18,495 nucleotides of DNA, taken from positions 1 through 18,495 of the forward strand of contig JAMORD010000184.1 in the NCBI GenBank assembly GCA_027063755.1, in the 5' to 3' direction. The notes below the pieces were generated by a model that was not told the origin of the DNA, did not search any database, and saw only the letters and a program-made list of their open reading frames with translations. The stretch comes from a bacterium (GTDB taxonomy: Bacteria; Coprothermobacterota; Coprothermobacteria; Coprothermobacterales; JAADFF01). Below, piece by piece: positions 194 through 18,495 of the stretch. Each line of letters starts with the position of its first letter. Positions within the stretch are counted from its first letter, which is position 1. The position numbers were made by a program, and so were the translations under genes.

Positions 194-814
194 TCATCCC
201 AAGATATATGCTATAAGTTTTTTATTATTTCCTCTGTCAATAGAATAGTTGTCCCAGAAGACACATGTTCCACCAACAATAAGTTTTCCACCATCTATCT
301 CCTTTTCTGCAAAGAATACAAGGTCTTTACCCTGATTGGACTTGCTAGTATCTTTGCCAACAACAATGGGTTTACCACCCTCAACAGTTGATGTACATGC
401 CAACACAACTTCTCCACCGCCTACCATATTGGCTTTTATCATAAGATTATCGCCTTCATCGTTGTTAACATCGTCGGTAACAATATCTCCATTGTGCTTC
501 ATACCAAAGTGCTCTACCAATGTGTTGATGGTGTCAGCTATACGATCCTCATTCTTGTAATAACCGAATATACCAACCTTTCCACCCTTAGCAAGGAACT
601 TGCGAACAATGTCAATATCTTTTTCACCAAATGGAATCTCAGGATAATTGAAGATCAGAGTGTCATAGTCTCCCTCTAATACCTTTTCAAGGTTATCAAC
701 TTCTTCTACCTCTTTACCCAGCTCTTCTTTAATAAACTTCTCAAGTTTCCAAAAATAGTAGTGGTCCGAAATAATGAATTCCTGATGAGCTGTAGACCAT
801 GCAATCTTACCCAT
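194..814 (-). CDS. GIFT/DUF4350-like (IFT52-type) domain protein, function unknown
   Basis: A 206-residue soluble protein with no signal peptide or membrane segment. The layout resembles the GIFT/DUF4350 fold (glutamine-amidotransferase-like, as in IFT52): an N-terminal segment with HQEF and an aromatic stretch (residues 10-27), DYDTLIFNYPE (49-59), then KDIDIVRKFLAKGGKVGIFG (65-84), and a C-terminal GGKLIVGGTCVFWDN followed by GNNKKLIAYIL (175-205), like the closing 'GG+vvvvGds..l.N...gN..l' element of the family. There is no obvious catalytic Cys-His-Glu triad, so enzyme activity is doubtful; such domains often bind sugars or proteins. The start follows AAGGAGGGG at good spacing, inside the end of the Mrp-like gene (3 bases between the genes). 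It is last in the operon. The family assignment is by pattern only. Confidence 0.55.
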   Translation of the reverse strand: MGKIAWSTAHQEFIISDHYYFWKLEKFIKEELGKEVEEVDNLEKVLEGDYDTLIFNYPEIPFGEKDIDIVRKFLAKGGKVGIFGYYKNEDRIADTINTLVEHFGMKHNGDIVTDDVNNDEGDNLMIKANMVGGGEVVLACTSTVEGGKPIVVGKDTSKSNQGKDLVFFAEKEIDGGKLIVGGTCVFWDNYSIDRGNNKKLIAYILG

Positions 815-817
815 ACC

Positions 818-1609
818 TTACCCCTCCTTTTCCACAGCGTTGTACATGTTTTCAAATATATCTGTTATCTCGGGCATTTCATCAAGGATCTTATATAGAA
901 TACCATGATCGGCATATTCAGAAAATCTGGAGTCTATAGGTAATCTTCCCATAAAAGGTATATCCCACTGACGGCAAATATCTTCTGTCTTACCTTTGCC
1001 AAATGGATATACAATATCGCCATTTGGACATTTGTAGTATCCATAGTTTTCTACAACACCCAGTACTTTCTTATTAAGCATCTTGGCCATGTTCATGGTC
1101 TTAGCAACAATAGTCTTTACCAAATCCTGCGTAGATGTCACAAGGAAAAATCCCGTAACCGGTATCTTCTGCATCAGAGAAAGAGGAATATCTGATGTGC
1201 CCGGTGGTAAATCTACAACAAGCCACTCTACATCATCCCATACCGTATCTTCAAAAAATTGGGTAAGAGCTTTATTCATAATGGGAGCTCTCCAAATAAC
1301 AGGTTTCTCAGGATCATCAAGGAGTAAAGAAAGGGACATAACCTTAACACCAGACTCTGAATCTTTGGGAACAAGCTTATCGCCATCGGCAACATCAATA
1401 GGAGGCTTTACATTGAATATCTTACCCTGCGATGAGCCTGTGAAGTCAACATCCACCATACCGGTAGGAATCCCCTTCACCCTCTGAAGATACATGGCAA
1501 ACAGAGCAGATACCGTAGACTTACCTACCCCTCCCTTTCCACTCATCACACCAATAATTTTCTTTCCTTTAAATAAGGCATCGTTTCCTACCTTAAAATT
1601 CAGTTCCAT
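818..1609 (-). CDS. Mrp/NBP35/ApbC-family P-loop ATPase with an incomplete CPxC motif
   Basis: A 263-residue member of the MinD/Mrp clade of deviant Walker ATPases, typically Fe-S cluster carriers. Visible are the deviant Walker A GKGGVGKST (24-32), the switch segment VDVDFTGSS (52-60), Walker B-like VVDLPPGTSD (131-140) and VVENYGYYKCP (185-195). In most Mrp/NBP35 proteins a CPxC pair here makes the bridging 4Fe-4S site of a dimer; this protein reads CPNG (Cys194), so the second cysteine is missing. The only other Cys left is far off, near residue 212. I chose ATG at 1607-1609 because GGAGGTG lies six bases upstream; a GTG further out (1616-1618) lies within that ribosome site. Fe-S delivery is the family role, but the missing Cys makes cluster binding uncertain. 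Confidence 0.85.
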   Translation of the reverse strand: MELNFKVGNDALFKGKKIIGVMSGKGGVGKSTVSALFAMYLQRVKGIPTGMVDVDFTGSSQGKIFNVKPPIDVADGDKLVPKDSESGVKVMSLSLLLDDPEKPVIWRAPIMNKALTQFFEDTVWDDVEWLVVDLPPGTSDIPLSLMQKIPVTGFFLVTSTQDLVKTIVAKTMNMAKMLNKKVLGVVENYGYYKCPNGDIVYPFGKGKTEDICRQWDIPFMGRLPIDSRFSEYADHGILYKILDEMPEITDIFENMYNAVEKEG

Positions 1610-1630
1610 ACACTCCACCTCCCAGTGGTA

Positions 1631-2251
1631 TTAATAAAATAGTTTTAGCATTAAATTCCATACCGGGGATACAATAATTTCCACCCATTTGTTGAGAATA
1701 GACGGAAATATGAATATAACAAGCATGAGAAACATAGAGCCATACATCTCTACTGTGTGATTAGCAAATAGGTCTTCTGGATTTTCAAATGCCAGTGATG
1801 CTAATATTCTGTAACCATCAAGTGGGGGTAAGAAAAACAAGTTAAAAGCTGCAAGGAATAGATTAATCATGGAAACCTGCAAAAAGATGTTTGCCCAGAA
1901 TGGAGAAAAGGCAAATATCTTTACCAAGAAGAAAAAGAAGAAAGACAGTATGATATTGGCCACAGGTCCAGCCAAAGCAACAAGTATTATACTAATTCGT
2001 CTTGGTTCTTTCAAACCATACATATTGATAGGAACAGGCTTCATCCAACCTATCCTACGGGTAACAAGCAACACAAGTAGCCCTATAGGATCAATATGAT
2101 TTATTGGATTCAGTGTCAATCTACCTGCCAGCTTAGGTGTCATATCACCTCTAAGATAGGCTACATATGCATGGGCAAATTCGTGAAACGATAATGACAT
2201 TACAAGAAAACCTATTATAATGGCATAATTTAATATCGTCATAGCATCCAT
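1631..2251 (-). CDS. Site-2-protease-like M50 family membrane metallopeptidase
   Basis: A 206-residue polytopic membrane protein of the short (PDZ-less) M50 class common in Firmicutes. The zinc site HEFAH (23-27) lies in the first membrane helix. NPINHIDPIG (48-57), ALAGPVANI (92-100, family G-P-x-A-N) and PPLDGYRIL (142-150) with the third metal ligand Asp145 all match the family, so it looks catalytically complete. Hydrophobic segments lie near residues 6-30, 86-115, 120-141 and 165-185. The substrate is unknown; related proteases cleave membrane-embedded regulators or peptides. The start follows AAGGAGGGG. Its stop is 22 bases before the Mrp-like start, and it begins one base after the nucleotidyltransferase stop, so it is co-transcribed. 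In Clostridia a gene of this type often sits beside pyrimidine/purine phosphorylase genes. Confidence 0.9.
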   Translation of the reverse strand: MDAMTILNYAIIIGFLVMSLSFHEFAHAYVAYLRGDMTPKLAGRLTLNPINHIDPIGLLVLLVTRRIGWMKPVPINMYGLKEPRRISIILVALAGPVANIILSFFFFFLVKIFAFSPFWANIFLQVSMINLFLAAFNLFFLPPLDGYRILASLAFENPEDLFANHTVEMYGSMFLMLVIFIFPSILNKWVEIIVSPVWNLMLKLFY

Positions 2252-2252
2252 G

Positions 2253-3374
2253 CTATAACCCCTCCTTTTTCAAACAATCTACAAAAGCACTTTCGCCTTT
2301 GCACTTTTCAAATATCTTCCTCTCTTTCCTCGCTATATCAAGCACACTATAACCAGCATTTATTTTCTGTTTGTCATATACCAGCATAAGCACCATTTTT
2401 AACTGTTTATATGAATCTACATAGTTAATATACCTTAAGATTGTATCATACATCTGTCCTGTCAGGCTCTTTAAAATCCCCCATTGACTCTCTATATCAA
2501 TAAATCGCTCCATACCTACAGCATTTATAAGGTTCTCCATCTCTCTAAAATAACGTCTGGAAATGATTAAGTATGTCTTTTCACGCAAAGCCTTAACAGA
2601 GTGGTATTCTGTCTGTTTATCAAATGTGAGTTTCAAAAACTCACTGTAACGAATTCCCCTAAGCACACGCGATGGATCCTCATAAGGGGAATAAAGTCTG
2701 ATATAGCGTAACACTCCCCTATGTAAATCGCCCATAGAATCAAAGGCATCCATCAGACCTTTATACGGATATATCATGTACGATACAGCCCCTATGGTAA
2801 AATCCCGTCGTTCTAAATCGGCAGATATAGAAGAAGGAACAACAACAGGCATTTTACCAGGTGATGTGTAATAGTCATAACGACTGAATGTAAAGTCTAT
2901 CTTGTAAGGTCCTATGTTAAGCTTGATACCTAATGGAAACTTTCTTATATCATACTTCTGCTCTAATATACTTGTAAAGACTTGAAAATCACCATATACC
3001 GATATATCAACATCATAGGTTTTACGACCTAAAATTGCATCCCTAACAAATCCTCCAACAATGTAGATATAACCGTTAAAGTCATACTGCCTTATAACAG
3101 ACAGTATATCTTCAATTTCAGGTGGAATATACATTTCCAAAGGCTTTAATTGAGGCATATGAGACAGGATAACACGGGATACATCTCGTTTCACAGTCTT
3201 ATACCATGAAGGATAAGGAAACTGACCTGCCTTTTTTATACCTATAAGTTTCTGCCTCACAATGTCTCTATAGACCGCTACACCATCTATATCTAAAAAA
3301 GCCCCTACCCCACAAGGGGCAAGGGCTTTTAAGGCCACTTCTATATCTGTATCCTTACCAAGCCAAACAATCAT
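2253..3374 (-). CDS. CCA-adding/poly(A) polymerase family tRNA nucleotidyltransferase
   Basis: A 373-residue class II nucleotidyltransferase. The active-site core is clear: IVGGFVRDAILG (105-116), the metal-binding DVD (121-123) in TYDVDISV, a third acidic residue Asp160 in KIDFTFSR, the nucleotide-binding RRDFT (189-193), and EDPSRVLRGIRY (232-243) for the EDxxRxxR motif. The expected product maintains the tRNA 3' CCA end. The first 85 or so residues are unusual: they are not part of the catalytic core and look faintly like a degenerate CBS-type segment (GVGAFLDIDGVAVYRDI), as in the long DHH-CBS-PAP fusions, but the DHH part is absent. RRDFTIGA replaces the common RRDFTINA. It may add all of CCA or only part of it; sequence alone does not decide. 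ATGA overlap with the upstream phosphorylase stop suggests translational coupling. Confidence 0.85.
   Translation of the reverse strand: MIVWLGKDTDIEVALKALAPCGVGAFLDIDGVAVYRDIVRQKLIGIKKAGQFPYPSWYKTVKRDVSRVILSHMPQLKPLEMYIPPEIEDILSVIRQYDFNGYIYIVGGFVRDAILGRKTYDVDISVYGDFQVFTSILEQKYDIRKFPLGIKLNIGPYKIDFTFSRYDYYTSPGKMPVVVPSSISADLERRDFTIGAVSYMIYPYKGLMDAFDSMGDLHRGVLRYIRLYSPYEDPSRVLRGIRYSEFLKLTFDKQTEYHSVKALREKTYLIISRRYFREMENLINAVGMERFIDIESQWGILKSLTGQMYDTILRYINYVDSYKQLKMVLMLVYDKQKINAGYSVLDIARKERKIFEKCKGESAFVDCLKKEGL
3295..3320 (-). terminator. Terminator-like hairpin inside the nucleotidyltransferase gene
   Basis: Read on the minus strand, GCCCCT, an eight-base loop TGTGGGGT, AGGGGC and then six T residues (3300-3295) form a GC-rich hairpin plus U-tract about 55-80 bases inside the coding region. 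An alternative outer pairing AAAAGCCC (3330-3323) / GGGCTTTT also exists, so two structures could compete. It may be a partial attenuator or simply the codons for a stretch rich in Ala, Pro and Gly followed by Phe and Leu. Confidence 0.3.
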
Positions 3375-4678
3375 TCTATATGTTCGTATATAACAGGAGG
3401 TTTCTGGACAGGTGTATCTACAATGTCGTAAACTCCCTCAAGTCTCTTCAATGCTTCCTGAAGCTTTGCCTCATCGGAGTAATAGATACGCATGAGAATA
3501 TCCCCTTTGGCAACTTTATCTCCAATCTTTCCATCAACATAGATACCAACACTGTGGTCAATAGGATCACTTTTCTTCACACGACCACCACCAAGATCAA
3601 CCACAGCCATACCAACTTTATAAGCATCTACTCCAGCAATATAACCATCTCTGTCTGCTTTGTATTCATAAACCTTATCAGCCCTCTTCATAACAGACCA
3701 TGGCTCATCTATAACCTTCTTATCTCCACCTTGAGCCTCAATCATAGCCCCAAAGATCTCTAAGGCTTTTCCACTGCGTATAACTTCCCACACATTTTCT
3801 TCGGCCTCTTCATAGGAGGATGCATGCCCTAAATGGTGCATAGTAGATGCAGCAAGACCAACACACAGCGCCGTAAAGTCTTCTGGTCCTTCACCTTTCA
3901 GCGTCTGTATAGCCTCTGCCACTTCAATGCTATTGCCAACGGCAATACCAAGAGGCTGATCCATATTCGTTAGGTGGGCTATGGTATCCCTACCAAGAGC
4001 CTTACCAAGTTCTACCATTGTCTTGGCAAGTTCCCTGGCATCATCAAGGGTCTTCATAAATGCCCCTTTGCCTACTTTGACATCAAGGGATACAAGATCT
4101 GTACCAACGGCCAGCTTTTTACTCATAATACTACTGGCTATAAGTGGAATACTATCCACAGTAGCTGTAACATCTCTAAGTGCATATAACTTTCCATCGG
4201 CAGGTACAAGGTTGGCGGTCTGTCCAACAACGGCTATACCAACTCTGCGGACAATATCCTTAAACTTTTCCATAGGTAGATATACATTTAGCCCTGGGAT
4301 AGATTCCAGTTTGTCAAGTGTACCACCTGTATGGCCAAGCCCTCTACCACTCATCTTGGCAACTTTATATCCCAATGCAGCCAGTATTGGGCCAACAACA
4401 AATGTTGTTTTATCACCGACACCACCGCTGGAATGCTTATCAACTTTTATACCATCTATATCAGAAAGGTCCACAAGGTCTCCGGAATGCATCATAACAT
4501 ATGTTAAATCGGCCGTTTCCTGATAGGTCATGCCGTTAAACCATACAGCCATGAGCCATGCAGATACCTGATAATCGGGAATATCACCGTCTACATAGCC
4601 CTTTATAAACCACTCTATTTCTTTTCTCGCGTGGGTGCCACCATATTTTTTCTTAGCTATAAAATCTTGAGGTAGCAT
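3371..4678 (-). CDS. pdp: Pyrimidine-nucleoside phosphorylase
   Basis: A 435-residue enzyme, the usual length for this family. It cleaves uridine or thymidine with phosphate to base plus (deoxy)ribose 1-phosphate. Phosphate-site motif KHSSGGVGDKT is at 81-91 and the family signature SGRGLGHTGGTLDKLES at 110-126. The pyrimidine-binding residues known from the Geobacillus stearothermophilus enzyme fall at the same numbers: Arg168, Ser183 and Lys187. Domain order is helical N-terminal part, alpha/beta phosphate domain, and a C-terminal mixed domain ending near 435. The ATG overlaps the punA stop by one base (TAATG). Together with punA and deoB it makes a nucleoside salvage set. Dual uridine/thymidine use is inferred from similarity to pyrimidine-nucleoside phosphorylases rather than to E. 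coli thymidine phosphorylase. Confidence 0.96.
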   Translation of the reverse strand: MLPQDFIAKKKYGGTHARKEIEWFIKGYVDGDIPDYQVSAWLMAVWFNGMTYQETADLTYVMMHSGDLVDLSDIDGIKVDKHSSGGVGDKTTFVVGPILAALGYKVAKMSGRGLGHTGGTLDKLESIPGLNVYLPMEKFKDIVRRVGIAVVGQTANLVPADGKLYALRDVTATVDSIPLIASSIMSKKLAVGTDLVSLDVKVGKGAFMKTLDDARELAKTMVELGKALGRDTIAHLTNMDQPLGIAVGNSIEVAEAIQTLKGEGPEDFTALCVGLAASTMHHLGHASSYEEAEENVWEVIRSGKALEIFGAMIEAQGGDKKVIDEPWSVMKRADKVYEYKADRDGYIAGVDAYKVGMAVVDLGGGRVKKSDPIDHSVGIYVDGKIGDKVAKGDILMRIYYSDEAKLQEALKRLEGVYDIVDTPVQKPPVIYEHIE

Positions 4679-5520
4679 TATAGTTCTACCTCCTTAATAA
4701 CCTTTTCTACAACCTTCACCAATTTATCCCCGGCCTCAGATGCCACCTTTAAAACCTCTTCGTGGGTTAGCTCGTTAATGAAGCCGGGAATAGCAATATC
4801 GGTGATAACAGAAAAACCAAGCACAGGTATCTTCATATGGGCAGCAACAATAGCCTCAGGAACAGTACTCATGCCAACAGCATCTGCCCCCCATCCACGC
4901 AAAAGCTTCAGCTCTGCCTTGGTCTCGTATGTGGGACCAGTCACAGCAATGTATACGCCTTTTTCCAGTCTAATACCCATTTCATCGGCTATTTTCATAG
5001 CAAGTTTTCTAAATTTCTCGGGATATACATGGTTCATATCGGGGAATCTCACACCCCATTCATCTATGTTCGGCCCAATAAGAGGATTGGGCATAAGGAA
5101 GCTAATATGATCCTCAATAATCATAATGTCTCCAGTGCGGAATGTGGGATTCATACCACCGGCAGCGTTGGTAACAACAAGGAGTTTTATACCAAGAAGC
5201 CCAAATACCCTTACTGGAAATGTAACAACTTCCATAGGATAGCCTTCATAATAGTGAAAACGACCAGAAAGCATAACAACTTTCTTATCTCCTATCTTAC
5301 CGACAACCAGTTTACCACTATGCCCTTTAACCGTTGAACGGGGAAAATTAGGAATTTCCTCATATGGAATCTCAATAGGATCCTCAACAGCCTCAACAAG
5401 TCCACCAAGACCAGATCCTAATATTACACCAATATCAAATGACTCAAAACCAGCTTTCTCCTTAATGTAAGATGCAGCCTGCATTACCTTTTCTTTGTAT
5501 TCATTCACATCTGTTATCAC
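4678..5520 (-). CDS. punA: Purine nucleoside phosphorylase (trimeric, PNP/MTAP family) with Asp at the base-specificity position
   Basis: A 280-residue trimeric-type purine nucleoside phosphorylase. Visible are the phosphate-site GSGLG (35-39), VKGHSGKLVVGK (64-75), SGRFHYYEGY (85-94), VTNAAGG (116-122), GPTYETKAEL (195-204) with the base-binding Glu199, and DAVGMSTVPE (213-222). It converts (deoxy)ribonucleosides to base plus ribose 1-phosphate. The position equal to human Asn243, which selects 6-oxopurines, is Asp241 here (SVITDIA, codon GAT), as in adenine-specific relatives. The Glu199 context is PNP-like rather than MTAP-like. Specificity may therefore include adenosine. The GTG start (5518-5520) is preceded by AGGAGGTGA at eight bases and lies 18 bases after the deoB stop. 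Confidence 0.95.
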   Translation of the reverse strand: MITDVNEYKEKVMQAASYIKEKAGFESFDIGVILGSGLGGLVEAVEDPIEIPYEEIPNFPRSTVKGHSGKLVVGKIGDKKVVMLSGRFHYYEGYPMEVVTFPVRVFGLLGIKLLVVTNAAGGMNPTFRTGDIMIIEDHISFLMPNPLIGPNIDEWGVRFPDMNHVYPEKFRKLAMKIADEMGIRLEKGVYIAVTGPTYETKAELKLLRGWGADAVGMSTVPEAIVAAHMKIPVLGFSVITDIAIPGFINELTHEEVLKVASEAGDKLVKVVEKVIKEVEL

Positions 5521-5538
5521 TGCGGTTCACCTCCTGCA

Positions 5539-6711
5539 TTATTTTTCAAATATCTCTTTGATGACTTCACCATATTTCATTGGGCCAACACCAAAGTTCT
5601 TGGCAATAGTCTGTCCAAGGTCGGCATATGTCTTTCTCACACCCACATGTATTGGTTTGGTGTAAGCGGGGGAATAGGCAACAATGGGCACATACTCTCG
5701 GGTATGATCTGTATGCAGCATGTGGGTTGGATCACAACCATGATCGGCAGTGATGACAAGAAGGTCATCTTCATCAAGATGAGGTAATAGCTGTTTCAAA
5801 TACTCATCAAACTCCATAATAGCCTGATAATAACCATCTCTGTTTCTTCTATGACCATAAAGGGTATCAAAGTCTACAAGATTGGTAAACAGGAGTCCCT
5901 TCCAGTCTTTCTTCTTTACAAAGTCTATGGTAATCTCCATGCCCTCGGCGTTGTTATGGGTATGAGTTTCATAGGTAAGTCCTCTATGGGCAAAGATATC
6001 TCCAATCTTACCTATGCCGATGACATCGTAGCCTGCTTGTTTCAAATAGTCCAAAACCGTATCTCCAAGGGGTGGTAATGAAAAATCTCTACGGTTAGCA
6101 GTTCTCTTAAACTCACCTTTTTTCTTACCAATGAATGGCCTTGCAATAACTCTGGCTACCGCGTGTTCTCCCTGAAGTATTTCTCTGGCAGTTTCACATA
6201 TCTTATACAGCTCTTCTGGTGGAATTAACTCCTCATGGGCTGCAATTTGGAAAACAGAATCGGCAGATGTATAGACAATAGGATATCCCGTCTTCAAATG
6301 AAGTTCACCCAGCTCATCAAGAATAACTGTACCTGATGCCGGTCTATTACCAAGTACTTTTCTACCTATACGCTTCTCAAACTCCTCAATAATTTCTTTG
6401 GGAAAACCATTAGGATAAGTAGGAAACGGTTTTTGAAGAACAAGCCCCATCATTTCCCAGTGACCGGTTGTAGTATCTTTACCGGGGGACATCTCTGCCA
6501 TCTTACCGTAACGGGTATTCATTGTAGGTTCTTTACCCCACAAGAGATATCCCAATCCCATAGAGATATATGTATCGGGAAGTTTATCTCTTCCTTCAAG
6601 AACATGAAGCATGGTATTGGTACCTACATCGTTAAATTTGTATGCATCTGGGAGCTCACCAACACCACCACTATCTATAACAATTACAGTTATTCTCTTG
6701 AAGTTCAGCAC
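5539..6711 (-). CDS. deoB: Phosphopentomutase
   Basis: A 390-residue cofactor-independent mutase of the alkaline phosphatase superfamily. It interconverts (deoxy)ribose 1-phosphate and 5-phosphate, passing products of the two neighbouring nucleoside phosphorylases to the pentose pool. Metal and active-site motifs are [12 protein letters not shown] (near 12-23), GTNTMLH (30-36), [10 protein letters not shown] (77-86) holding the acceptor threonine, then ADHG and [10 protein letters not shown] in the C-terminal half. I place the start at GTG 6709-6711, six bases after GGAGGTG; the longer reading from 6720 would start at a GTG within the ribosome binding site itself. There is no deoC next to it, so deoxyribose 5-phosphate aldolase, if present, is elsewhere. 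Confidence 0.96.
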
Positions 6712-6731
6712 AATTAACACCTCCTCTAATT

Positions 6732-7229
6732 TCAGTATAGCACCAACATAGCAGATACAAGTGTTTTGCTATCGTGAAACTCCAAGTGTTTGCATTTTTC
6801 TATAAACTCCTTGATGGGCATAAAAATCACTTCTGATATAGTTTCCCCTTCATCAAGATGTTGTCCCACATAATTGTCTGTATTCACTTTCACCCTCACA
6901 AAGTGAAGAACCTCATTGGCATATCCAACAGTGGGGTACATATATCCAAGATACTCCTCTGTACCCTCAACATGGGTATAACCAGTTTCTTCTTGCAACT
7001 CTCGGAGTGCTGTCTGCAAAGGATCTTCTCCGGGATCTACAAGTCCGGCAGGTATCTCCACAGTCCAATTACCTATAGCAGGGCGATATTGCTTGACAAG
7101 AATAATATTACCCCGCTCATCAAGGGCAATAATACCTACAGCCTCTGGCCTTTTTACAACCTCATAATGATCATCAACAAGAAACACCTGCAGGAAACGA
7201 CCTTCCCACAAGAGTTTTCCTTCTTTCAT
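6732..7229 (-). CDS. Nudix hydrolase, ADP-ribose pyrophosphatase type
   Basis: A 165-residue Nudix protein. The Nudix box fits the consensus exactly: G62, E68, R76-E77, E80-E81 and G83 within [20 protein letters not shown] and the next three residues. The upstream [20 protein letters not shown] pattern (46-65) and the downstream YMYPTVGY are typical of the ADP-ribose pyrophosphatase subgroup (NudF-like), which yields AMP plus ribose 5-phosphate. Its place directly before deoB agrees with that: both feed ribose 5-phosphate, and the nudF-...-deoB-punA order is common in Firmicutes. The start follows AAGGAGATGA; the pgsA stop lies within that leader, three bases away. Substrate is inferred from subgroup pattern, not shown. 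Confidence 0.9.
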
Positions 7230-7232
7230 ATA

Positions 7233-7775
7233 CTAATCATCTCCTTTTTCCGTAAGATACGGCACGGCATGTAGGAAATAAGTGTATCCTGAATAAAGGG
7301 CAACTACTGCAGTAAGATATACAAGTATTTTAATTAGCAGATTCAAAGAAAAATAAGGAGACAAATAAACAGCAGATATAAGTATCGTCTGAAGGAGTGT
7401 TTTCATCTTACCCCACACATTGGCAGGCACAACAACACCTTTGGATGCCAAAAACATACGAATACCACTGACAAAAATATCTCTAAGTATAATTATGGCC
7501 ACAAACCACAGAGGAAGCTCCCTTGACCATAGGAAAATAAGGAATATAGCATTAATAAGCAATTTATCAGTAATCTGATCCATGAATTTCCCCAAATTGG
7601 TCACCATGTTATATCGTCTGGCAATCATGCCATCAAATACATCTGTAATCATAGCAAACCAAAATAATATGAGGGCTATCCAATAGTATTCTTTCTGGAT
7701 TGATAGGGGAAATAAAGGCACAATCATGAGAAGTCTAATTAATGTCAATATATTAGCTGCATTCCACAATTTCAT
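7233..7775 (-). CDS. pgsA: CDP-diacylglycerol-glycerol-3-phosphate 3-phosphatidyltransferase
   Basis: A 180-residue membrane enzyme of the CDP-alcohol phosphotransferase family, making phosphatidylglycerol phosphate from CDP-diacylglycerol and glycerol 3-phosphate. The family motif D-x2-DG-x2-AR-x8-G-x3-D-x3-D is complete (Asp45, Asp48, Gly49, Ala52-Arg53, Gly62, Asp66, Asp70). About five or six hydrophobic helices are visible, and the N-terminal NAANILTLIRLLMI is PgsA-like. FMDQITDK replaces the common FLDPxADK, so another CDP-alcohol transferase is possible but less likely. I chose ATG 7773-7775, preceded by GGAGAGTGAG; the ATG 18 bases further out (7791-7793) has no ribosome site and lies next to the likely -10. 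It is the first gene of the left-hand operon. Confidence 0.85.
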   Translation of the reverse strand: MKLWNAANILTLIRLLMIVPLFPLSIQKEYYWIALILFWFAMITDVFDGMIARRYNMVTNLGKFMDQITDKLLINAIFLIFLWSRELPLWFVAIIILRDIFVSGIRMFLASKGVVVPANVWGKMKTLLQTILISAVYLSPYFSLNLLIKILVYLTAVVALYSGYTYFLHAVPYLTEKGDD

Positions 7776-7796
7776 AGTCTCACTCTCCAACATATT

Positions 7797-7824
7797 ATTA
7801 TATAGTTATTCTACAACGAAAAAA
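7797..7824 (-). promoter_or_regulatory. Possible promoter for the pgsA operon
   Basis: On the minus strand a perfect -10 box TATAAT lies at 7802-7797, just after the terminator of the upstream operon. The only -35 candidate at 16 bases is the poly-T tail of that terminator (7824-7819), a poor match to TTGACA. Transcription would begin near 7790, which fits translation from the ATG at 7775. Confidence 0.4.
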
Positions 7825-7844: not shown

Positions 7845-7865
7845 CATACATGTAATGTATACACC

Positions 7866-10267: not shown

Positions 10268-10282
10268 ACTTTATCCCCCTCC

Positions 10283-10525: not shown

Positions 10526-10543
10526 AACCCGTCCCCTCCTTTC

Positions 10544-11221: not shown

Positions 11222-12287
11222 ATTCTTTTGCTTCCTCCTCTCCCTTTAGCACACGAAGGGCACCAAGAGCAAGGGCCTCCATCTCCATCTCACCGGGATA
11301 CACATAAATAGGAGCAATCCACTCTGCATGTTCTTTTATCTTATCTACAAACCACTTGAAGTATGCAAGTCCACCTGTAAGGAGAATCGCATCAACTTTA
11401 CCCTCTAATGCTGCTGCCATATGTCCAATCCACTTAGCAATTTGATAAGCAGTAGCCCCCACCACGAGTTTAGCCTTCTCGTCACCAGCTTCTATATCAT
11501 TTTCTATCTTGATAGCATCAGAAGTTCCTAAATGTGCCACCCATCCACCTTTACCTTTGATTTTTTTCAGCATGGTTTTCTTATCATATTTCCCTTCAAA
11601 GCATAGTTTGGCAAGTGAATATACGGGTAAAGTACCGGAACGCTCAGGAGACATAGGCCCTTCTCCATCAAGGGCATTGTTAACATCTATCACCCTACCC
11701 TGTCTATGGGCACCAATGGAAATGCCACCACCCATATGAACAACAATAACATTGACATCTTTATAGTCCTTACCATGCTCACGAGCCCACCTACGAGCAA
11801 CAGCACGCTGATTAAGGGCATGGAAAATACTTTTCCTCTGAAATTCTGGCCAACCTGTAGGACGGGCAATATCTACCATCTCGTCCACAACTACTGGGTC
11901 AACAATAAATGCAGGTTTACCCCCAGCCTCCTGGGCAAGTTCATAGGCTATAAGGGCACCAAGATTAGAAGCATGTTCCCCCATTGGTCTATTTTTCAAA
12001 TCATCAAGCATCTTTTCATTAACCCTATATGTGCCACCTTCCATGGGTTTTAAAAGACCACCACGCCCCACAAATGCATCAATCTCCTCCAGAGATACTC
12101 CCTTTTCCTTCAAGAGTTTCAGTATAGTATCTTTTCTAAATTGATATTGATCGGCAATCCTATCAAACTTCTGAATTTCAGCGGGATCATGACGAACCGT
12201 TTCCTGCCACACTTTATTTTCATCTTCAAACAAGGCTACCTTCGTAGATGTAGAACCAGGGTTTATAACAAGTATCTTATATCCCAT
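11214..12287 (-). CDS. buk: Butyrate kinase 1 (canonical)
   Basis: A 357-residue acetokinase-family enzyme that transfers phosphate between butyryl (or isobutyryl/isovaleryl) phosphate and ADP, the ATP-yielding last step. Motifs match butyrate kinases closely: INPGSTSTKVALFEDE (8-23), FVGRGGLLKPMEGGTY, GEHASNLGALIA, FIVDPVVVDEM, KSIFHALNQRAVARR, VHMGGGISIGAHRQGR, GEGPMSPERSGTLP and LTGGLAY. All substrate and nucleotide elements look intact. The start follows AAGGAGGGAT; it lies three bases after the ptb stop and overlaps the NTPase start by eight bases. This copy is the more standard of the two kinases flanking ptb. Confidence 0.96.
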   Translation of the reverse strand: MGYKILVINPGSTSTKVALFEDENKVWQETVRHDPAEIQKFDRIADQYQFRKDTILKLLKEKGVSLEEIDAFVGRGGLLKPMEGGTYRVNEKMLDDLKNRPMGEHASNLGALIAYELAQEAGGKPAFIVDPVVVDEMVDIARPTGWPEFQRKSIFHALNQRAVARRWAREHGKDYKDVNVIVVHMGGGISIGAHRQGRVIDVNNALDGEGPMSPERSGTLPVYSLAKLCFEGKYDKKTMLKKIKGKGGWVAHLGTSDAIKIENDIEAGDEKAKLVVGATAYQIAKWIGHMAAALEGKVDAILLTGGLAYFKWFVDKIKEHAEWIAPIYVYPGEMEMEALALGALRVLKGEEEAKEYA

Positions 12288-12290
12288 ATA

Positions 12291-13193
12291 TCATCCCTCC
12301 TTCATGGCTATACCAGCCAAGAGTGAGTAATATTTGCTTTCATATGTATCCGCACGGGAAGGTACTATAACAGGCACAGTGGCCCCCACAACAATTCCAG
12401 CCATTTTTCCACCGGCTGCATATGTAAAGGACTTCCCAAGAAGATTACCTGCCTCTATATCTGGCACAAGAAATATATCGGCATCTTCTATAACGGGAGA
12501 CTTTATCCCCTTATGTTCTGCTGCAACACGGGATAGCACATTATCAAGTGCAAGTGGTCCATCAACAATAGCCTTTATCTGCTTTCTCCAAGACATCACA
12601 GTCAGTGCAGCAGCATCCATTGTTGCCGGCATCTTAGGATTAACTGTTTCAACAGCTGCAAGAACAGCTACCTTGGGCATATCGTATCCCAAGCGGGATG
12701 TCACCCATAGGGTATTATGAAGAATCTGCACCTTTTCATCAAGTGTAGGATATGGCACCATGCCACCATCTGTAAGGAATATAACCTTTGGATATGTTGG
12801 AACATCAAACAAAGCCACATGACTCATGAGTTTAGCCCTTCTAATACCCCACTCTTTGTTTAACACAGCCTTGAGGAACGTAGCTGTTTTAACAAGACCC
12901 TTCATAATGGCATGGGCTCCACCATCTCTTACAATCTTAACGGCCTTTTCAGCCATTTCTGCTTCATCGGAGGCATAGACAACCTCAAATTGTGAAATAT
13001 CTATCCCCTCCTCTTCAGCCGTCTTTTCAAGTTTTCCCTTATCGGCAACAAGTATAATCTCAGCAACTTTATCTTTGACAGCCATATCAGCTGCCTTCAA
13101 TGCTTCACTATCATGACCACCGGCTATAACAACTTTTACTTCTTCACGAGAATGTGCAAGTTCTTTCAGTGCAGAAAAATCTTTCAAAGCCAT
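12291..13193 (-). CDS. ptb: Phosphate butyryltransferase
   Basis: A 300-residue member of the phosphate acetyl/butyryltransferase family. It exchanges CoA for phosphate on butyryl-CoA or branched-chain acyl-CoA, giving the acyl phosphate used by butyrate kinase. The N-terminal VKVVIAGGHDSEALKAA (19-35), AIMKGLVKTATFLKAVLN (94-111), MSHVALFDVPTYPKVIFLTD and the C-terminal KSFTYAAGGKMAGIVVGA are typical of Ptb. The start follows AGGGAGGGGG. It is placed between two butyrate kinase genes, 3 and 14 bases from them. With the 2-oxoacid oxidoreductase downstream the acyl-CoA substrate is most likely derived from valine, leucine or isoleucine. Confidence 0.95.
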   Translation of the reverse strand: MALKDFSALKELAHSREEVKVVIAGGHDSEALKAADMAVKDKVAEIILVADKGKLEKTAEEEGIDISQFEVVYASDEAEMAEKAVKIVRDGGAHAIMKGLVKTATFLKAVLNKEWGIRRAKLMSHVALFDVPTYPKVIFLTDGGMVPYPTLDEKVQILHNTLWVTSRLGYDMPKVAVLAAVETVNPKMPATMDAAALTVMSWRKQIKAIVDGPLALDNVLSRVAAEHKGIKSPVIEDADIFLVPDIEAGNLLGKSFTYAAGGKMAGIVVGATVPVIVPSRADTYESKYYSLLAGIAMKEG

Positions 13194-13207
13194 ATATATC
13201 CCCCTCC

Positions 13208-14290
13208 CTACTGATAAACCTTAGGCTCTTCAATACCTTTGATAACACGCCATGCTCCTTCGGCAAGAGCCTCCATTTCAAAACCACCAGGATACACTTT
13301 AAATGGTGCAATCCAACCAATATATTTCTTAAAGAAGTTAATGACATAGTCGTTGTATGCCAAACCACCGGTAACGATAATAATCTCAACATTTCCCTTC
13401 AATACGCTGGCCATAGCAGCAATATCCTTTGAAACCTGATAAAGCATTGCATCAATGACAAGCTTAGCCTTTTCGTCGGTTTCGGAACGCTTAAGGGCTT
13501 CACGAAAATCTTTGGTACCAAGATGGGCATACATACCACCCTTACCGGCAATTCTCTTAAGAGTTTGTACCTTATCAGGTTTCTTATCGTAGATATACCT
13601 GACAAGGTCTCCAACGGGTAATGAACCTGCACGCTCTACCTGGAAAGGACCTCCCTCATTGGCATTATTGATATCAACAATACGACCATTCTTTATGGCG
13701 GCAATAGAAAATCCGCCCCCAAGGTGAACGGCAACGGCATTGACATCTTTTATATCCTTTCCAACCTCGGCCGCATATTTGCGAACAACAGCCCTTAAAT
13801 TCAGCATATGACCATGGCTTCTACGGGGAAGTTCAGGAAGACCTGAGAGCCTTGCATAATCTTCAAACTCATCAACAGACACAGGATCCGTAAAGTAAGC
13901 CTTTACACCAAACTCCTTTGCAAGCTCATAGCCAATAACGATTCCAACAAGGGAAATATGGTGAGCCTCAACACGCCAGTTGAGAATATCATCTACAATT
14001 TTCTCATTAACTTCATATGTGCCACCTTCCATAGCCTTTACAGGCCCACCACGGACGGCAAACGCAAGCAGGTTATCCTTTGTAACACCATGCTTGGACA
14101 TAAAGTCTATCACTGCTTTTTTTCTCATGTCTTTCTCCTCAAGAACATTCTGGAATTTATCAAGTTCTTCTTGAGGGTGGTCTATCGTCTCAACGACAAT
14201 TTTCTCTACACCAGTATCTGTAGCCTTGAAAAGGCCCAGTTTGGTAGATGTTGAACCGGGATTGACAACAACAATTCTGTCTTTATCCAT
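13208..14290 (-). CDS. Butyrate kinase 2 (divergent paralogue)
   Basis: A 360-residue acetokinase-family protein with the same framework as copy 1: VNPGSTSTKLGLF (9-21), RGGPVKAMEGGTYEVNEK, VHLGGGFSIAAIKNGR, VTGGLAYND. Several positions that are near-invariant in butyrate kinases differ: HASNLGA in copy 1 is HHISLVG here, KSIFHALNQ is RSHGHMLNL, and GEGPMSPERSG is EGGPFQVERAG with one residue less. Overall fold and ATP site look intact, so it is probably an active acyl kinase with different acyl specificity rather than a decayed copy. Annotated family would be butyrate or branched-chain-fatty-acid kinase. The start overlaps the recN end by eight bases and follows AGAGGTGAT. Confidence 0.85.
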   Translation of the reverse strand: MDKDRIVVVNPGSTSTKLGLFKATDTGVEKIVVETIDHPQEELDKFQNVLEEKDMRKKAVIDFMSKHGVTKDNLLAFAVRGGPVKAMEGGTYEVNEKIVDDILNWRVEAHHISLVGIVIGYELAKEFGVKAYFTDPVSVDEFEDYARLSGLPELPRRSHGHMLNLRAVVRKYAAEVGKDIKDVNAVAVHLGGGFSIAAIKNGRIVDINNANEGGPFQVERAGSLPVGDLVRYIYDKKPDKVQTLKRIAGKGGMYAHLGTKDFREALKRSETDEKAKLVIDAMLYQVSKDIAAMASVLKGNVEIIIVTGGLAYNDYVINFFKKYIGWIAPFKVYPGGFEMEALAEGAWRVIKGIEEPKVYQ

Positions 14291-15881
14291 TCATATCACC
14301 TCTCTTATAAGAGTTTATGAGCTCAAGGGCCACATCATAGGCCCCTTTAGAACCACCATCAATCAAACGAGCAATTTCTTTAATTCGGTGGTCCCCCTCT
14401 AACATTTTAACCTCTTTTCTCACTCCAAGGTCTTTAACAGAAAAGTGCATATCGGCAGCAGCGGCAACAAATTGGGAATGGGTTGATGTAATTACCTGAA
14501 CATTTTCAGCTAACCTTTTCAAAAACCATGCAATTTTAGATGCAACATTGCCACTGGTACCGGCATCAATTTCGTCAAACACCATAACCTCTTGTTTGGG
14601 TGGAACAAGAGTATAAAGAAGTAATAGAATACGGGATAACTCGCCAGATGATGCTATGTCATAGACAGGAACCGTTTTCTTGCCAACTTTAAAGACAAAC
14701 TCCACAATATCATTGCCATATGGAAAAAATCCATCCTTTTGTGCGAGATGAATATCAACAATACCACCCAATACATCCCTAGAATATTGGACAAGATATT
14801 GTTTTATAGTATCTACAGCTTCCTTGCGCCTTGAGGTGATAATCTTAGACAATGATATATACTTATCTTCCAGTTGTTTCGCCTCTTCACGCAACTTATC
14901 TATCTCTGCTCGTTTCTGCCTTAGTGTCACATCTACCTCTTCTATCTGTGTTACCATTTGTTTAAGCCCTTCTATATCCGTATCATATTTACGCATAAGC
15001 CTTTGTATCTTCCATATGATATGTTCCAATTCATCTAGAGACATCTCTGGATACTCGTATTCAGCAATGATATTTTCTACACTGTCGGTTATCTCAGAAA
15101 TAATGTCATACACACAATCCACATCTATATCAATAGATAGAGCCGAAAGGAGAGACTCCACACTTACCATAAGATTCCAAACAGAATCTTCGTTATTTTT
15201 TAATATATTCTTTATTTTATATGCCTTTTCCAATATATTTTCAGCCTGCTTCAATTTGTCCGCCAGTTTAAGCATATCCTCGTACCTATCAAGGTAATCT
15301 GCCACTTCCTTGAATTCATTTTCTAATAGCTTTAAGCGCTCCAGTCTTTCAGTAAGCAATGAAAAATTGACTTCAGAAGCTGCTATAACCTCCTGCAACT
15401 TCTCATACTTGTTGTAAACCAAGGCAATTTCTGAGAGCAATTTTTTATCCACAAACCTATCAATTAACTGCAACCGGAAAGATTCTTTTTTAAGACTTTG
15501 CCTCTCATCAACTGAGACTAAAGAAATAAGAGGACCAAGAATAGATGATACGGACGCCCATGTCATGAGAATACCGTTTAAACGATAAATTGTTCGCTCT
15601 TTTTTACTAATGAAAACTGATACCTCTGGAGAGTCTATATCGTATCCCATACCAGTAAGTTTAGATATAACATCATCGGGTAAGTCAACAATGGCACTAA
15701 TGGTATATCTATCAAGCTTGGAAAATCGTTGTGTCTTTCTTCCAAATACATGAGAGATAGCCTCAAGAATAAGAGACTTACCCGTTCCAGATTCACCGGT
15801 TATGACATTCAGCCCTTTTGAAAATTCAAGATCACCGTGAAAACCCAGTGAAGGAATATCAAGAGTTATCGCTTTCAACAT
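14283..15881 (-). CDS. recN: RecN-like SMC-type DNA repair ATPase
   Basis: A 532-residue protein with RecN layout: N-terminal ATPase half with Walker A GESGTGKS (29-36), a central coiled coil (about residues 150-375), and a C-terminal half with signature SSGELSR (411-417), Walker B VMVFDEIDAGTSG (432-444) and ITSTHSQFVAAAADMHFSVK. RecN acts in double-strand break repair. It is slightly short for the family (usually about 550-570). Two signatures deviate: the RecN-typical HGQHEHQ segment reads SVDERQSL (123-130), and the usual SGGE reads SSGE. Gene position (after nadK, before buk/ptb) matches Firmicutes recN. The start overlaps the nadK end by 23 bases, with only a weak GGGGT as ribosome site, so coupled translation is likely. 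Confidence 0.85.
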   Translation of the reverse strand: MLKAITLDIPSLGFHGDLEFSKGLNVITGESGTGKSLILEAISHVFGRKTQRFSKLDRYTISAIVDLPDDVISKLTGMGYDIDSPEVSVFISKKERTIYRLNGILMTWASVSSILGPLISLVSVDERQSLKKESFRLQLIDRFVDKKLLSEIALVYNKYEKLQEVIAASEVNFSLLTERLERLKLLENEFKEVADYLDRYEDMLKLADKLKQAENILEKAYKIKNILKNNEDSVWNLMVSVESLLSALSIDIDVDCVYDIISEITDSVENIIAEYEYPEMSLDELEHIIWKIQRLMRKYDTDIEGLKQMVTQIEEVDVTLRQKRAEIDKLREEAKQLEDKYISLSKIITSRRKEAVDTIKQYLVQYSRDVLGGIVDIHLAQKDGFFPYGNDIVEFVFKVGKKTVPVYDIASSGELSRILLLLYTLVPPKQEVMVFDEIDAGTSGNVASKIAWFLKRLAENVQVITSTHSQFVAAAADMHFSVKDLGVRKEVKMLEGDHRIKEIARLIDGGSKGAYDVALELINSYKRGDMNG

Positions 15882-16722
15882 AGCGACTACCCCAATGAAA
15901 TTTTGACCGTATATTGTCTATCCAAGAATAATAACCATCAACATGAATATACACAAGGGATATACCTTCGGCAAGTGTTACCTGCAAACATCTTTTACTA
16001 TCAAAATATGTATCAGAAAGACCATCAACAAGCAAATGCCATGGTTTTCCATTTATGCATATCTTTGTTTTACGCCCCATAGAAACAACAATAGGCCTAA
16101 TGGTTATATGATGTGGATTCAACATGCTAACAACATATACGGGGGCAATACTATCAACAATAGGCCCGCCTGCCGATAGCGAATAAGCCGTTGAACCGGC
16201 AGATGTAGCCACCACAATACCATCACCTTTCACTGTGCCAACGATTTCATCTTCAATGAATACAGAAATATCCAAGATATCAAGAGGTTTATCCTTAACA
16301 AAGACCACATCATTTATAAATAGAGATTTTTTTTCATCAGTTGTTGTGCTAATTTCCATAACAGGCCTTTGCCATTTTTCAATACTGCCTAACTTCAGTT
16401 TTTGAACAGCATCATGCACCTTAGATACATCTATCCGATCAGGCATAAAGTTAAACTCACCAGCGGCAATGGGCCATATGGGAACAGTCAACATAGCATT
16501 CAGAAGTAGATGAGAAACCCTTATCAGTGTCCCGTCGCCACCGATGGAGACAAGAAGATCAACTTTAGGTAGAGCTGTTAAGTCAAGAACTTGCCAATCT
16601 TCCAGCGGCAATATAAAAGACACTTCTATAGACTCAGTATGAAATACATTGCGAAACGCATCCACTAAAGCAAGAGCTTTCTTCCTTGTAGGATGATGAA
16701 TAATACCAACCTTATTAATCAC
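15859..16722 (-). CDS. nadK: NAD kinase
   Basis: A 287-residue NAD(+) kinase, making NADP from NAD and ATP. VSIGGDGTL (58-66) holds the catalytic Asp63, and the NAD-binding DGIVVATSAGSTAYSLSAGG with the following PIV is nearly perfect, as is FINDVVF (family NE/ND). The segment after GGDGT differs: families usually have GINxGxLGFL, but here it reads PIAAGEFNFMP (84-94). The start is GTG 16720-16722 with GAGGGGG eight bases upstream. Order nadK-recN is usual in Clostridia, often with argR between, absent here. It ends 23 bases inside recN. Confidence 0.9.
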   Translation of the reverse strand: MINKVGIIHHPTRKKALALVDAFRNVFHTESIEVSFILPLEDWQVLDLTALPKVDLLVSIGGDGTLIRVSHLLLNAMLTVPIWPIAAGEFNFMPDRIDVSKVHDAVQKLKLGSIEKWQRPVMEISTTTDEKKSLFINDVVFVKDKPLDILDISVFIEDEIVGTVKGDGIVVATSAGSTAYSLSAGGPIVDSIAPVYVVSMLNPHHITIRPIVVSMGRKTKICINGKPWHLLVDGLSDTYFDSKRCLQVTLAEGISLVYIHVDGYYSWIDNIRSKFHWGSRYVESDNS

Positions 16723-16737
16723 AAGGTATCCCCCTCA

Positions 16738-17010
16738 TTAGTAAGTGATACGAAATATACTTTCACCCTTTGGTTCAATGTCTTCTATCTCTAATGCTTC
16801 AACGATTGCATGCGACGGTCCTACTTTCAGTTTTTCAATAAGGGACTCAACAGCATATGTATCCCCTTCTGCCTCAACAAGCACTGAACCATCGGGCAAA
16901 TTTTTTACAAACCCACCAACACCCAACAAGCTTGCGTGCCGTCTGGTAAACCACCGAAAACCAACTCCCTGCACAACCCCTTTAATCTTGATTCTCTTTC
17001 TTACCCGCAT
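16738..17010 (-). CDS. acyP: Acylphosphatase
   Basis: A 90-residue protein of typical acylphosphatase length. The phosphate loop GVVQGVGFRWF (11-21) has the catalytic Arg19, and GFVKNLPDGSV (33-43) has the catalytic Asn37. It hydrolyses the carboxyl-phosphate bond of acyl phosphates. The start overlaps the nusB end by 29 bases; there is no other in-frame start that would keep the first beta strand, and the ribosome site is weak, so it probably depends on nusB translation. Placement upstream of the acyl-phosphate-making Ptb/Buk genes in one transcript is notable, but the family is also a common stand-alone housekeeping protein. Confidence 0.94.
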   Translation of the reverse strand: MRVRKRIKIKGVVQGVGFRWFTRRHASLLGVGGFVKNLPDGSVLVEAEGDTYAVESLIEKLKVGPSHAIVEALEIEDIEPKGESIFRITY

Positions 17011-17440
17011 AACTCTTAGTCACTTCTTCAGCAATACCTTTCAATGTTGCGTTAACAAGCGAAGCAAACTTTTCATCTACATAAAGTTTTGCAAGGTTAA
17101 CAGCCTCATTAACGGCGACAGCTACTGGTACAAGGTGTCTATAAAAAAGAATTTCTGCAGCCCCAATTCTCAGTATAGTCTTCTCCAATTCTCCCATCCT
17201 ATCAAATAAAGTTGATTTTATGTGATTACGCAATACTTCATCCAGAACCTCTCTCTTATCTATAACTGTGGAAATAATACGTTTGGCGTGTCTCTTTAAC
17301 TTGCTTGACGGCTTCAAATTGGCCATAGTTTGAGAAAGAACTTCTTTACGCGACGGTTTTATCTCAGCAACCTCATAACTATAAAGAGCCGTAAGTAAGT
17401 TTTTCCTCAGCTTTCTGAAATACTTATTACTCAGTGACAT
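16982..17440 (-). CDS. nusB: Transcription antitermination factor NusB
   Basis: A 152-residue all-helical protein. The N-terminal RKLRKNLLTALYSYE (9-23) and the C-terminal ILRIGAAEILFYRHLVPVAV followed by VNEAVNLAKLY and DEKFASLVNATLKGIAEE match NusB, which binds the boxA RNA with S10 (NusE) for rRNA antitermination. It is near the normal length, with a somewhat extended C-terminus (KSYAGKKENQD) that is encoded by the overlap with the acylphosphatase gene. The usual 'S.xFVNgvL' reads FASLVNATL, a mild deviation. The ATG overlaps the Asp23-like gene end by 14 bases and has no good ribosome site, so coupling is likely. The Asp23-nusB order is classic Firmicutes. Confidence 0.9.
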   Translation of the reverse strand: MSLSNKYFRKLRKNLLTALYSYEVAEIKPSRKEVLSQTMANLKPSSKLKRHAKRIISTVIDKREVLDEVLRNHIKSTLFDRMGELEKTILRIGAAEILFYRHLVPVAVAVNEAVNLAKLYVDEKFASLVNATLKGIAEEVTKSYAGKKENQD

Positions 17441-17726
17441 CCTCTACAAGCACCACCACTCGCACAATATAATGCATTCCCAGTATCCCAGAAACAACCT
17501 TCTCAACAAAAGAAGCTACCCTATTTACTATCTTTTCTACCTTAGCATTGGGGAATACCGATATAGGAACAACAATCTCTATAATATCCTTATCAATCTC
17601 TTCAATTGTAATAGCATCCATGCCTCCGACAATACCAGAAACCCCGTCAATATCAGGAACGAGGGCAACAAGTGTTGCCCTCAACACATCATATGCATTC
17701 GTTGAAGCCTGTGGCTTCTTTATCAT
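17427..17726 (-). CDS. Short Asp23/Gls24-like protein
   Basis: A 99-residue protein that I assign to the Asp23/Gls24 (DUF322) family by shape and position. It keeps ATLVALVPDIDGVSGIVGG (17-35), an alternating hydrophobic strand IIEIVVPISVFPNAKVEKI (48-66), a helix RVASFVEKVVSGILG (69-83) and the final strand YIVRVVVLVEDV (86-97), much like the 'V...V..y...v..v...v...V...v....G..v..V.v.v..v' of Asp23. It is shorter than Asp23 proper and lacks a membrane anchor. The gene sits between efp and nusB, where an asp23-like gene is normally found in Firmicutes. Function of this small form is unknown; it is linked to cell envelope maintenance in staphylococci. It overlaps the efp stop as ATGA. Confidence 0.7.
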   Translation of the reverse strand: MIKKPQASTNAYDVLRATLVALVPDIDGVSGIVGGMDAITIEEIDKDIIEIVVPISVFPNAKVEKIVNRVASFVEKVVSGILGMHYIVRVVVLVEDVTE

Positions 17727-18289
17727 TTTGAACGCACCCTTTCTACATATTCTCCTGTACGGGTGTCAATTTTCAAGACATCACCAATCTTTATGAAGAG
17801 TGGCACCTGTACTACCGCACCTGTCTCAAGGGTTGCTGGTTTACTACCACCTGCAGCTGTATCTCCTCTTAAGCCAGGATCGGTATCTACAACTGCAAGT
17901 TCTACAAATGTAGGAAGCTCTACAGACAGTGGCTGTCCCTCATAATAATAGATACGCACTGTGGTATCCTCTTTCATAAACTTAGCAGCATCACCAACAA
18001 TCTCTGCAGGAATACCAACTTGATCATATGTGTAAGTATCCATAAAGTAATAGGTATCACCATCGTTGTAGAGATACTGCATATCCTTACCTTCAAGATA
18101 TGCCTGTTTGACCTTTTCTCCCGCTCTAAATGTTGTCTCTATAGATGCCCCATCACTTAATCTTCTCATACGTACTCTAACGAAAGCAGAGCCCTTTCCC
18201 GGTTTAACATGCTGTGCTTCAAGAATCCTATAGAGCACACCATCAAGATCTATAACGACGCCTGAACGCAGATCGTTTGTAGATATCAC
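17723..18289 (-). CDS. efp: Translation elongation factor P
   Basis: A 188-residue protein with the three-domain EF-P layout. It relieves ribosome stalling at polyproline stretches. The tip loop VKPGKGSAFVRVR (28-40) carries Lys32, the residue modified in Firmicutes-type EF-P, rather than Arg32 or the EpmA-type Lys34 context. The C-terminal signature TDPGLRGDTAAGGSKPATLE and the end DTRTGEYVERV are nearly invariant. The start is GTG (18287-18289), eight bases after AGGAGG; an out-of-frame ATG lies between and can be ignored. No modification enzyme gene is seen here. It is first in the operon, right behind a likely promoter. Confidence 0.97.
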   Translation of the reverse strand: MISTNDLRSGVVIDLDGVLYRILEAQHVKPGKGSAFVRVRMRRLSDGASIETTFRAGEKVKQAYLEGKDMQYLYNDGDTYYFMDTYTYDQVGIPAEIVGDAAKFMKEDTTVRIYYYEGQPLSVELPTFVELAVVDTDPGLRGDTAAGGSKPATLETGAVVQVPLFIKIGDVLKIDTRTGEYVERVRSK

Positions 18290-18325
18290 TATACATCCCT
18301 CCTATTTCTTTTTATAGCTACATCT

Positions 18326-18355
18326 ATTATATCAGAGCCTAAATATCTTATCCAA
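18326..18355 (-). promoter_or_regulatory. Extended -10 promoter for the efp operon
   Basis: On the minus strand, TGATATAAT (18334-18326) gives a perfect TATAAT with the TG of an extended -10; the TGA is also the stop codon of the upstream peptidase. A weak -35 (TTGGAT, 18355-18350) lies 18 bases away. The start would fall near 18318, giving a leader of about 30 bases before the efp GTG. Confidence 0.5.
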
Positions 18356-18495
18356 AGAGGATAAAACTATGACTCCGTCATCTGTCATCATAACATCATC
18401 TTCTATTCTCACCCCAAATTCCCCCGGTAGATAAACACCAGGTTCAATAGTAAAGATAATGTTTCTATCTATAACCTCTTCAGACATATAAGACA
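18332..18495 (-). CDS. M24-family aminopeptidase (Xaa-Pro/PepQ-like), C-terminal fragment
   Basis: The gene runs off the right edge; 53 C-terminal residues are visible before TGA at 18332-18334. FTIEPGVYLPGEFGVRIEDD matches the C-terminal metal-ligand region of creatinase-fold M24 peptidases such as Xaa-Pro dipeptidase, including the Glu of TIEPG and the Glu of RIEDD. The next residues (VMMTDDGVIVLSSLDK) are the usual end. In Firmicutes a pepQ-like gene directly before efp is standard, which fits. The N-terminal half is outside the window, so substrate class cannot be judged. Confidence 0.88.
   Translation of the reverse strand, partial: SYMSEEVIDRNIIFTIEPGVYLPGEFGVRIEDDVMMTDDGVIVLSSLDKIFRL

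Follow-up and report, generated by a model that had tools for sequence, protein, structure and literature searches.

The locus described here raises the question of whether a chromosomal gene order familiar from Bacillota (Firmicutes), found without any sporulation gene, has had those genes removed or dates from before they were inserted. The stretch analyzed (18,495 nucleotides, contig JAMORD010000184.1 of assembly GCA_027063755.1; hereafter the window) is an entire contig of a 1.51 Mb draft genome that is 88% complete and is taken to belong to the phylum Coprothermobacterota. Every annotated gene, from position 18495 down to 194, lies on the minus strand, in the reading order pepQ-efp-Asp23-nusB-acyP-nadK-recN-buk2-ptb-buk1-P-loop NTPase-vorD-vorB-vorA-vorC-pgsA-nudix-deoB-punA-pdp-CCA-M50-Mrp-type ATPase-DUF4350-like. 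Apart from the buk-ptb-vor genes, the functions encoded are unrelated housekeeping ones, with genes for translation, recombination, the phosphorylation of NAD and the salvage of nucleosides. The reading that we favor, with a probability of about 0.66, odds of roughly two to one over the rest combined, is that this is an old housekeeping order, vertically inherited, into which the spore genes were inserted in the Bacillota stem and that Coprothermobacterota never had them.

The Bacillota counterpart was defined in a set of 199 genomes (representative, G059), with 20 complete loci, representing about 19 families, examined gene by gene. Most often the order in these loci is nadK-argR-recN-spoIVB-spo0A-...-nudix-spoIIM-xerD-deoB-punA-pdp-dacF-spoIIAA-spoIIAB-sigF-...-CCA-M50-trpS-scpA-scpB, and in G059 spoIIIAE, recN, spoIVB, spo0A and deoB follow one another on one strand. 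The spore genes of one such locus exceeded the cut-offs of curated models (SpoIVB 479 bits, Spo0A 404, SpoIIM 142, SpoIIAA 126 and SpoIIAB 208), and the same locus also carries a SigF/G-type sigma factor and an S11 carboxypeptidase. Spo0A was present in 175 of the 199 genomes. Among the matches listed, 79 genomes had spo0A and deoB on one contig; in 74 of them deoB lay downstream of spo0A on the same strand, and in 66 the two were no more than 35 kb apart (median 12 kb). The genes were paired by hand, and the count is biased to genomes with both on one contig; where spo0A lay more than 250,000 positions into its contig, the corresponding count dropped to 20/33.

Compared with the recN-to-sigF region of these Bacillota (Clostridia), the window shares the backbone genes, their order and their strand, but lacks the spore genes, argR and dacF. 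At each of the four places concerned the window is closed. The efp and Asp23 genes overlap by 4 bp at the junction upstream of which Bacillota have spoIIIA; recN and buk2 overlap by 8 bp, where Bacillota have spoIVB-spo0A after recN; 11 bp separate nudix from deoB, between which Bacillota place spoIIM-xerD; and pdp overlaps the CCA gene by 4 bp, with dacF-spoIIAA-spoIIAB-sigF following pdp in Bacillota. There is no space for extra genes at any of the four. In three Bacillota loci (G120, G194 and G119) the interval from spo0A to deoB contains buk genes, vor genes or both, and the window is colinear and co-oriented with them over 12/12 shared genes in G120 and G194, buk/vor genes included, and 9/9 in G119 (permutation p ≤ 5e-5). 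Because these Bacillota hold both sets, the possibility that the buk/ptb/vor cluster replaced spoIVB-spo0A was rejected. Family scans, closed junctions and the 20 Bacillota loci thus bear out the preliminary description, made from the window's sequence, in its claim of a Firmicutes-like gene order free of spore genes.

The spore genes searched for are not elsewhere in the phylum either, where their discovery would have spoken against that description. The Spo0A_C output domain, SpoIIIAE (of the SpoIIIA channel) and the SpoIVB S55 peptidase were found in 0/9 Coprothermobacterota genomes, and relatives with fuller assemblies than the window's own show the same absence. Among 108 representatives of other phyla, Spo0A_C and SpoIIIAE were each detected in one, the Bacillota representative, which was also the only one with full-length SpoIVB S55, all matches outside Bacillota being short and weak. 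SpoIID was considered as a relic of sporulation and set aside; the family occurs in 69 of 117 genomes, and is little informative because it is so widespread, and it is absent from the families of the window and of C. proteolyticus. In one outgroup genome (G021), a gene upstream of efp carries the label 'Spo0A', which was likewise discarded, the protein being by sequence an OmpR-type response regulator and PF08769 having no match in that genome. A sigma factor gene of the SigB/F/G type lies beside aspS in a C. proteolyticus-type genome (L037:2164-2895), and the window's genus has a related sigma gene in this position (G006, L046); the former scored 190 bits against a TIGR02980 cut-off of 234 and higher as SigB than as SigF, a result for a single gene, no genome-wide search for sigma E, F, G and K having been made.

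The arrangement is a property of the phylum. In nine genomes from three families, recN adjoins buk in all nine and the order is kept as far as the contigs reach; recN-buk2-ptb-buk1-vor-nudix is present in all three families, and buk-ptb-buk-vorDBAC-nudix wherever contigs are long enough, so that relatives do not have the unrelated order that would have made the resemblance to Bacillota accidental. The single-contig genome G002 (1,424,912 bp), which we take to be Coprothermobacter proteolyticus, shares with the window pepQ-efp through recN-buk-ptb-buk-P-loop-vor-nudix-deoB-punA-pdp-CCA, but differs by the presence of xerD (in the nudix-deoB interval), dxs (in the nusB-nadK interval) and trpS (following CCA), and by the lack of pgsA at the vorC/nudix position. 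In this family the run begins upstream with aspS-sigma-yrrI-ruvX-pilBTC-pepQ-efp and continues after nudix with xerD-deoB-punA-pdp-CCA-trpS-cmk-ispH-der. Only in the window's genus is xerD missing between nudix and deoB, and pgsA is an addition of that genus, not being there in G001-G005 or G007. The earlier list of missing genes therefore stands for the spore genes, absent from the whole phylum where searched, but not for xerD, whose absence is local. 'Ca. Psychracetigena formicireducens' (G007), placed in Coprothermobacterota in the genome set, has been described as Ca. Lithacetigenota (PMC9751293). It resembles the window over pepQ-efp-(Asp23-like)-nusB-acyP-tlyA-nadK-recN-buk-ptb-buk-vorDBAC-nudix, but has other genes after nudix, and its xerD-deoB lies on a separate contig, with the two halves apart. 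RecN itself is unusually divergent in Coprothermobacterales: its score of 240 bits falls short of the family cut-off (408), and sequences from different families are about 25% identical. That of Ca. Psychracetigena scored 464 bits.

Spore-less versions of the same junctions also occur in other phyla, which were sampled with apparently about one genome each. One of them, G083 (GC content 69%, no Spo0A), has nusB-acyP-ispA-tlyA-nadK-recN-pyrG-ilvE-nudix-xerD-deoB-punA-pdp; like the window, it runs from nadK-recN through nudix to deoB-punA-pdp without spore genes, but it has pyrG-ilvE between recN and nudix where Coprothermobacterota have buk-ptb-buk-vor. G085 carries pepQ-efp-accB-accC-Asp23-...-nusB-dxs-tlyA-nadK-recN-nudix at one locus and xerD-deoB-pdp-M50-trpS-scpB elsewhere. 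G021 has efp-Asp23-nusB-acyP-ispA-dxs-tlyA-nadK-recN-buk-ptb, and G053 has nusB-acyP-tlyA-nadK-recN-vorDBA, with vor genes after recN also in G074 and G029. No spore gene was recognized at these places in any of the six. Order and strand agreed with the window for 9/9 genes in G083, 8/8 in G021, 7/7 in G085 and 7/7 in G053, and the remaining phyla mostly retain just nadK-recN or dxs-tlyA-nadK-recN. In G021 (L173) and G053 (L174), deoB is on a different contig from recN, and none of nudix, xerD, punA and pdp adjoins it, so that in these phyla the block's deoB half has come apart.

A tree of 17 ribosomal-operon proteins (2792 columns, 38 genomes, FastTree/LG) grouped the window's genome with the Coprothermobacter-type G002 and G005 (support 1.000). 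It joined Coprothermobacterota first to G021 and next to G085, and put G083 and G053 with Bacillota. An exclusive clade of Coprothermobacterota and Bacillota was rejected in a constrained likelihood (approximately unbiased, AU) test on 23 genomes, run in fast mode with 1000 resamplings (difference in log-likelihood 224, AU p 0.0005). Published trees group C. proteolyticus with Dictyoglomota, Caldisericota and Thermotogota (PMC10356935; PMC7203096), and the species is listed as asporogenous, with its placement in Clostridia supported by neither ribosomal nor whole-genome trees (PMC3533761). The deoB, pdp and xerD trees recovered Coprothermobacterales as monophyletic and outside Bacillota, that of deoB placing them with G021 as do the ribosomal proteins; those of buk, ptb and vor mix phyla and were uninformative. 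As the genome and its deoB, pdp and xerD fall outside Bacillota, the initial description of the window as a 'compressed' order is unsupported in what it suggests, a Firmicute with lost genes, and the term is also misleading because xerD is missing here in one genus only.

On the reading that we favor, a co-directional run efp-Asp23-nusB-...-nadK-recN-...-nudix-(xerD)-deoB-punA-pdp-...-CCA-M50-trpS would be older than endospore formation and would have come down by vertical descent to Coprothermobacterota and Bacillota as well as to several further phyla. Insertions in the stem of Bacillota would then have put spoIVB-spo0A behind recN, spoIIM ahead of xerD, dacF-spoIIAA-spoIIAB-sigF behind pdp and spoIIIA upstream of nusB, spore genes never having been present in Coprothermobacterota. 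The run is presumably transcribed co-directionally, and we propose no further mechanism for the gene order. Insertion is the simplest course because the split has spore-less junctions on either side, in G083, nearer Bacillota, and in Coprothermobacterota, G021 and G085; of the two options first put forward, removal of the genes or an order predating their arrival, the second is favored by two lineages besides Coprothermobacterota, G083 among them, that have these junctions free of spore genes. Several points weigh against this conclusion. The missing spore genes, the common order and the arrangements in the outgroups are observed, but its direction, insertion and not loss, is inferred by parsimony from few lineages, and the parsimony consists only of one set of gains against at least two losses, with few informative outgroup phyla. 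The species tree is a FastTree/LG tree of just 17 proteins, and in an incomplete maximum likelihood run (23 taxa) G053 stood beside G085, not with Bacillota.

The common ancestor of Bacillota, Coprothermobacterota and their neighbors might instead have been a spore former from which several lineages cleanly deleted the genes at these junctions. Deletions would yield exactly the observed order, Bacillota readily lose sporulation (PMC3533761), and an origin of outer membranes via sporulation has been proposed (as cited in PMC8871954). This history is nevertheless unlikely, as it calls for at least two independent and complete losses of all tested genes, in G083 and on the side of Coprothermobacterota, G021 and G085, leaving tight junctions and no relics, and Spo0A_C and SpoIIIAE occur in no representative outside Bacillota. 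That the genes gathered repeatedly under selection, their order then saying little on ancestry, is conceivable for deoB-punA-pdp and buk-ptb-vor, metabolic units able to form more than once, but is improbable for the functionally unrelated recN, nudix, xerD, deoB, efp, Asp23 and nusB, which hold order and strand across phyla; nor is the order due to chance, because it is kept in nine genomes of the phylum, as far as the contigs reach, and is colinear with the Bacillota loci. Transfer of the block between Bacillota and Coprothermobacterota, before or after the addition of spore genes, would fit the high share of transferred genes stated for Coprothermobacterota and related thermophiles (PMC10356935) and the mixing of phyla in the buk, ptb and vor trees. 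We regard it as very improbable, since deoB, pdp and xerD of the monophyletic Coprothermobacterales fall outside Bacillota, so that the block is no recent loan from that phylum, deoB goes with G021 as the ribosomal proteins do, and the block spans phyla that have no common recent donor.

The features of the window are collected in Table 1. Identities were assigned from Pfam and NCBIfam scans, with NusB, Asp23, EF-P and the C-terminus of PepQ recognized through tblastn or phmmer matches to relatives; the Asp23 open reading frame (ORF) gave no Pfam hit when scanned alone.

Table 1 Genes of the window in reading order, with the evidence for each assignment.
Feature	Position	Strand	Evidence
pepQ (Xaa-Pro peptidase), C-terminal part only	18337..18495	-	63% vs G006 pepQ, frame aligned
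efp, elongation factor P	17723..18289	-	98% to G006, 65% to C. proteolyticus-like G002
Asp23-like	17427..17726	-	phmmer match to G085 Asp23 ORF
nusB	16982..17440	-	tblastn to relatives' nusB
acyP, acylphosphatase	16738..17010	-	PF00708 1.2e-24
nadK	15859..16722	-	PF20143/PF01513
recN, divergent	14283..15881	-	TIGR00634 3.2e-71, below cut-off
buk2, butyrate kinase paralogue	13208..14290	-	TIGR02707 394 bits, above cut-off
ptb, phosphate butyryltransferase family	12291..13193	-	TIGR02706 328 bits, below cut-off
buk1, butyrate kinase	11214..12287	-	TIGR02707 548 bits, above cut-off
P-loop NTPase, between buk and vorD	10544..11221	-	homologue at same place in Bacillota G120
vorD, ferredoxin subunit of 2-oxoacid oxidoreductase	10283..10525	-	Fer4 domains and position
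vorB	9185..10267	-	NF005507 VorB 494 bits, above cut-off
vorA, thiamine pyrophosphate-binding subunit	8424..9185	-	PF02775
vorC, gamma subunit	7866..8420	-	PF01558; TIGR02175 above cut-off
pgsA	7233..7793	-	TIGR00560 above cut-off
nudix hydrolase	6732..7229	-	PF00293
deoB, phosphopentomutase	5539..6720	-	TIGR01696 above cut-off
punA, purine nucleoside phosphorylase	4678..5520	-	NF006054 above cut-off
pdp, pyrimidine nucleoside phosphorylase	3371..4678	-	TIGR02644 above cut-off
CCA/poly(A) polymerase-head protein	2253..3374	-	PF01743
M50 (site-2 protease-like) peptidase	1631..2251	-	PF02163

A feature beyond those first described is that ptb is flanked by two buk paralogues and followed by a vorDBAC cluster. 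By established pathway knowledge, genes of this kind form a module for the fermentation of branched-chain 2-oxoacids via acyl-CoA and acyl-phosphate to ATP, a role that fits a proteolytic anaerobe. The two paralogues (window 11214-14290) are about 50% identical and flank ptb in all three families and also in a metagenome-assembled genome (MAG) of Synergistales (L030); buk1 is 94% identical to its nearest named record, from a MAG labeled 'Dictyoglomota bacterium'. The P-loop NTPase between buk and vorD matches no curated family; it may work with the buk/vor module as a conserved partner, because it takes the same place in Coprothermobacterales (window 10544-11221) and in Bacillota G120 (L054:3876-4595). 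A C. proteolyticus-type genome has two tandem cmk-plsC fusion genes (L038:8613-10942) whose N-terminal parts of about 200 residues are apparently identical, the pattern left when genes have recently been duplicated or converted.

Published work has already shown Coprothermobacter to be asporogenous and not a Clostridium or other Firmicute; in our literature searches, mostly outside subscription papers, no junction-by-junction comparison was found described. Endospore formation may have had a single origin in the stem of Bacillota, or it may be older and have disappeared from many lineages. This question is linked with that of how double membranes originated, and gene junctions bring to it evidence that is independent of gene trees. 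If spore-less junctions truly recur in several phyla other than Bacillota, they would locate the insertion events and disfavor ancestral sporulation. We lean slightly toward the further view that Coprothermobacterota, G083, G085 and G021 display the chromosome as it was before endospores, the four junctions being the sites where early spore genes were inserted and the sporulation program having been built beside housekeeping genes already in order. The shared order may also have helped Coprothermobacter to resemble Clostridium, with which it was long classified.

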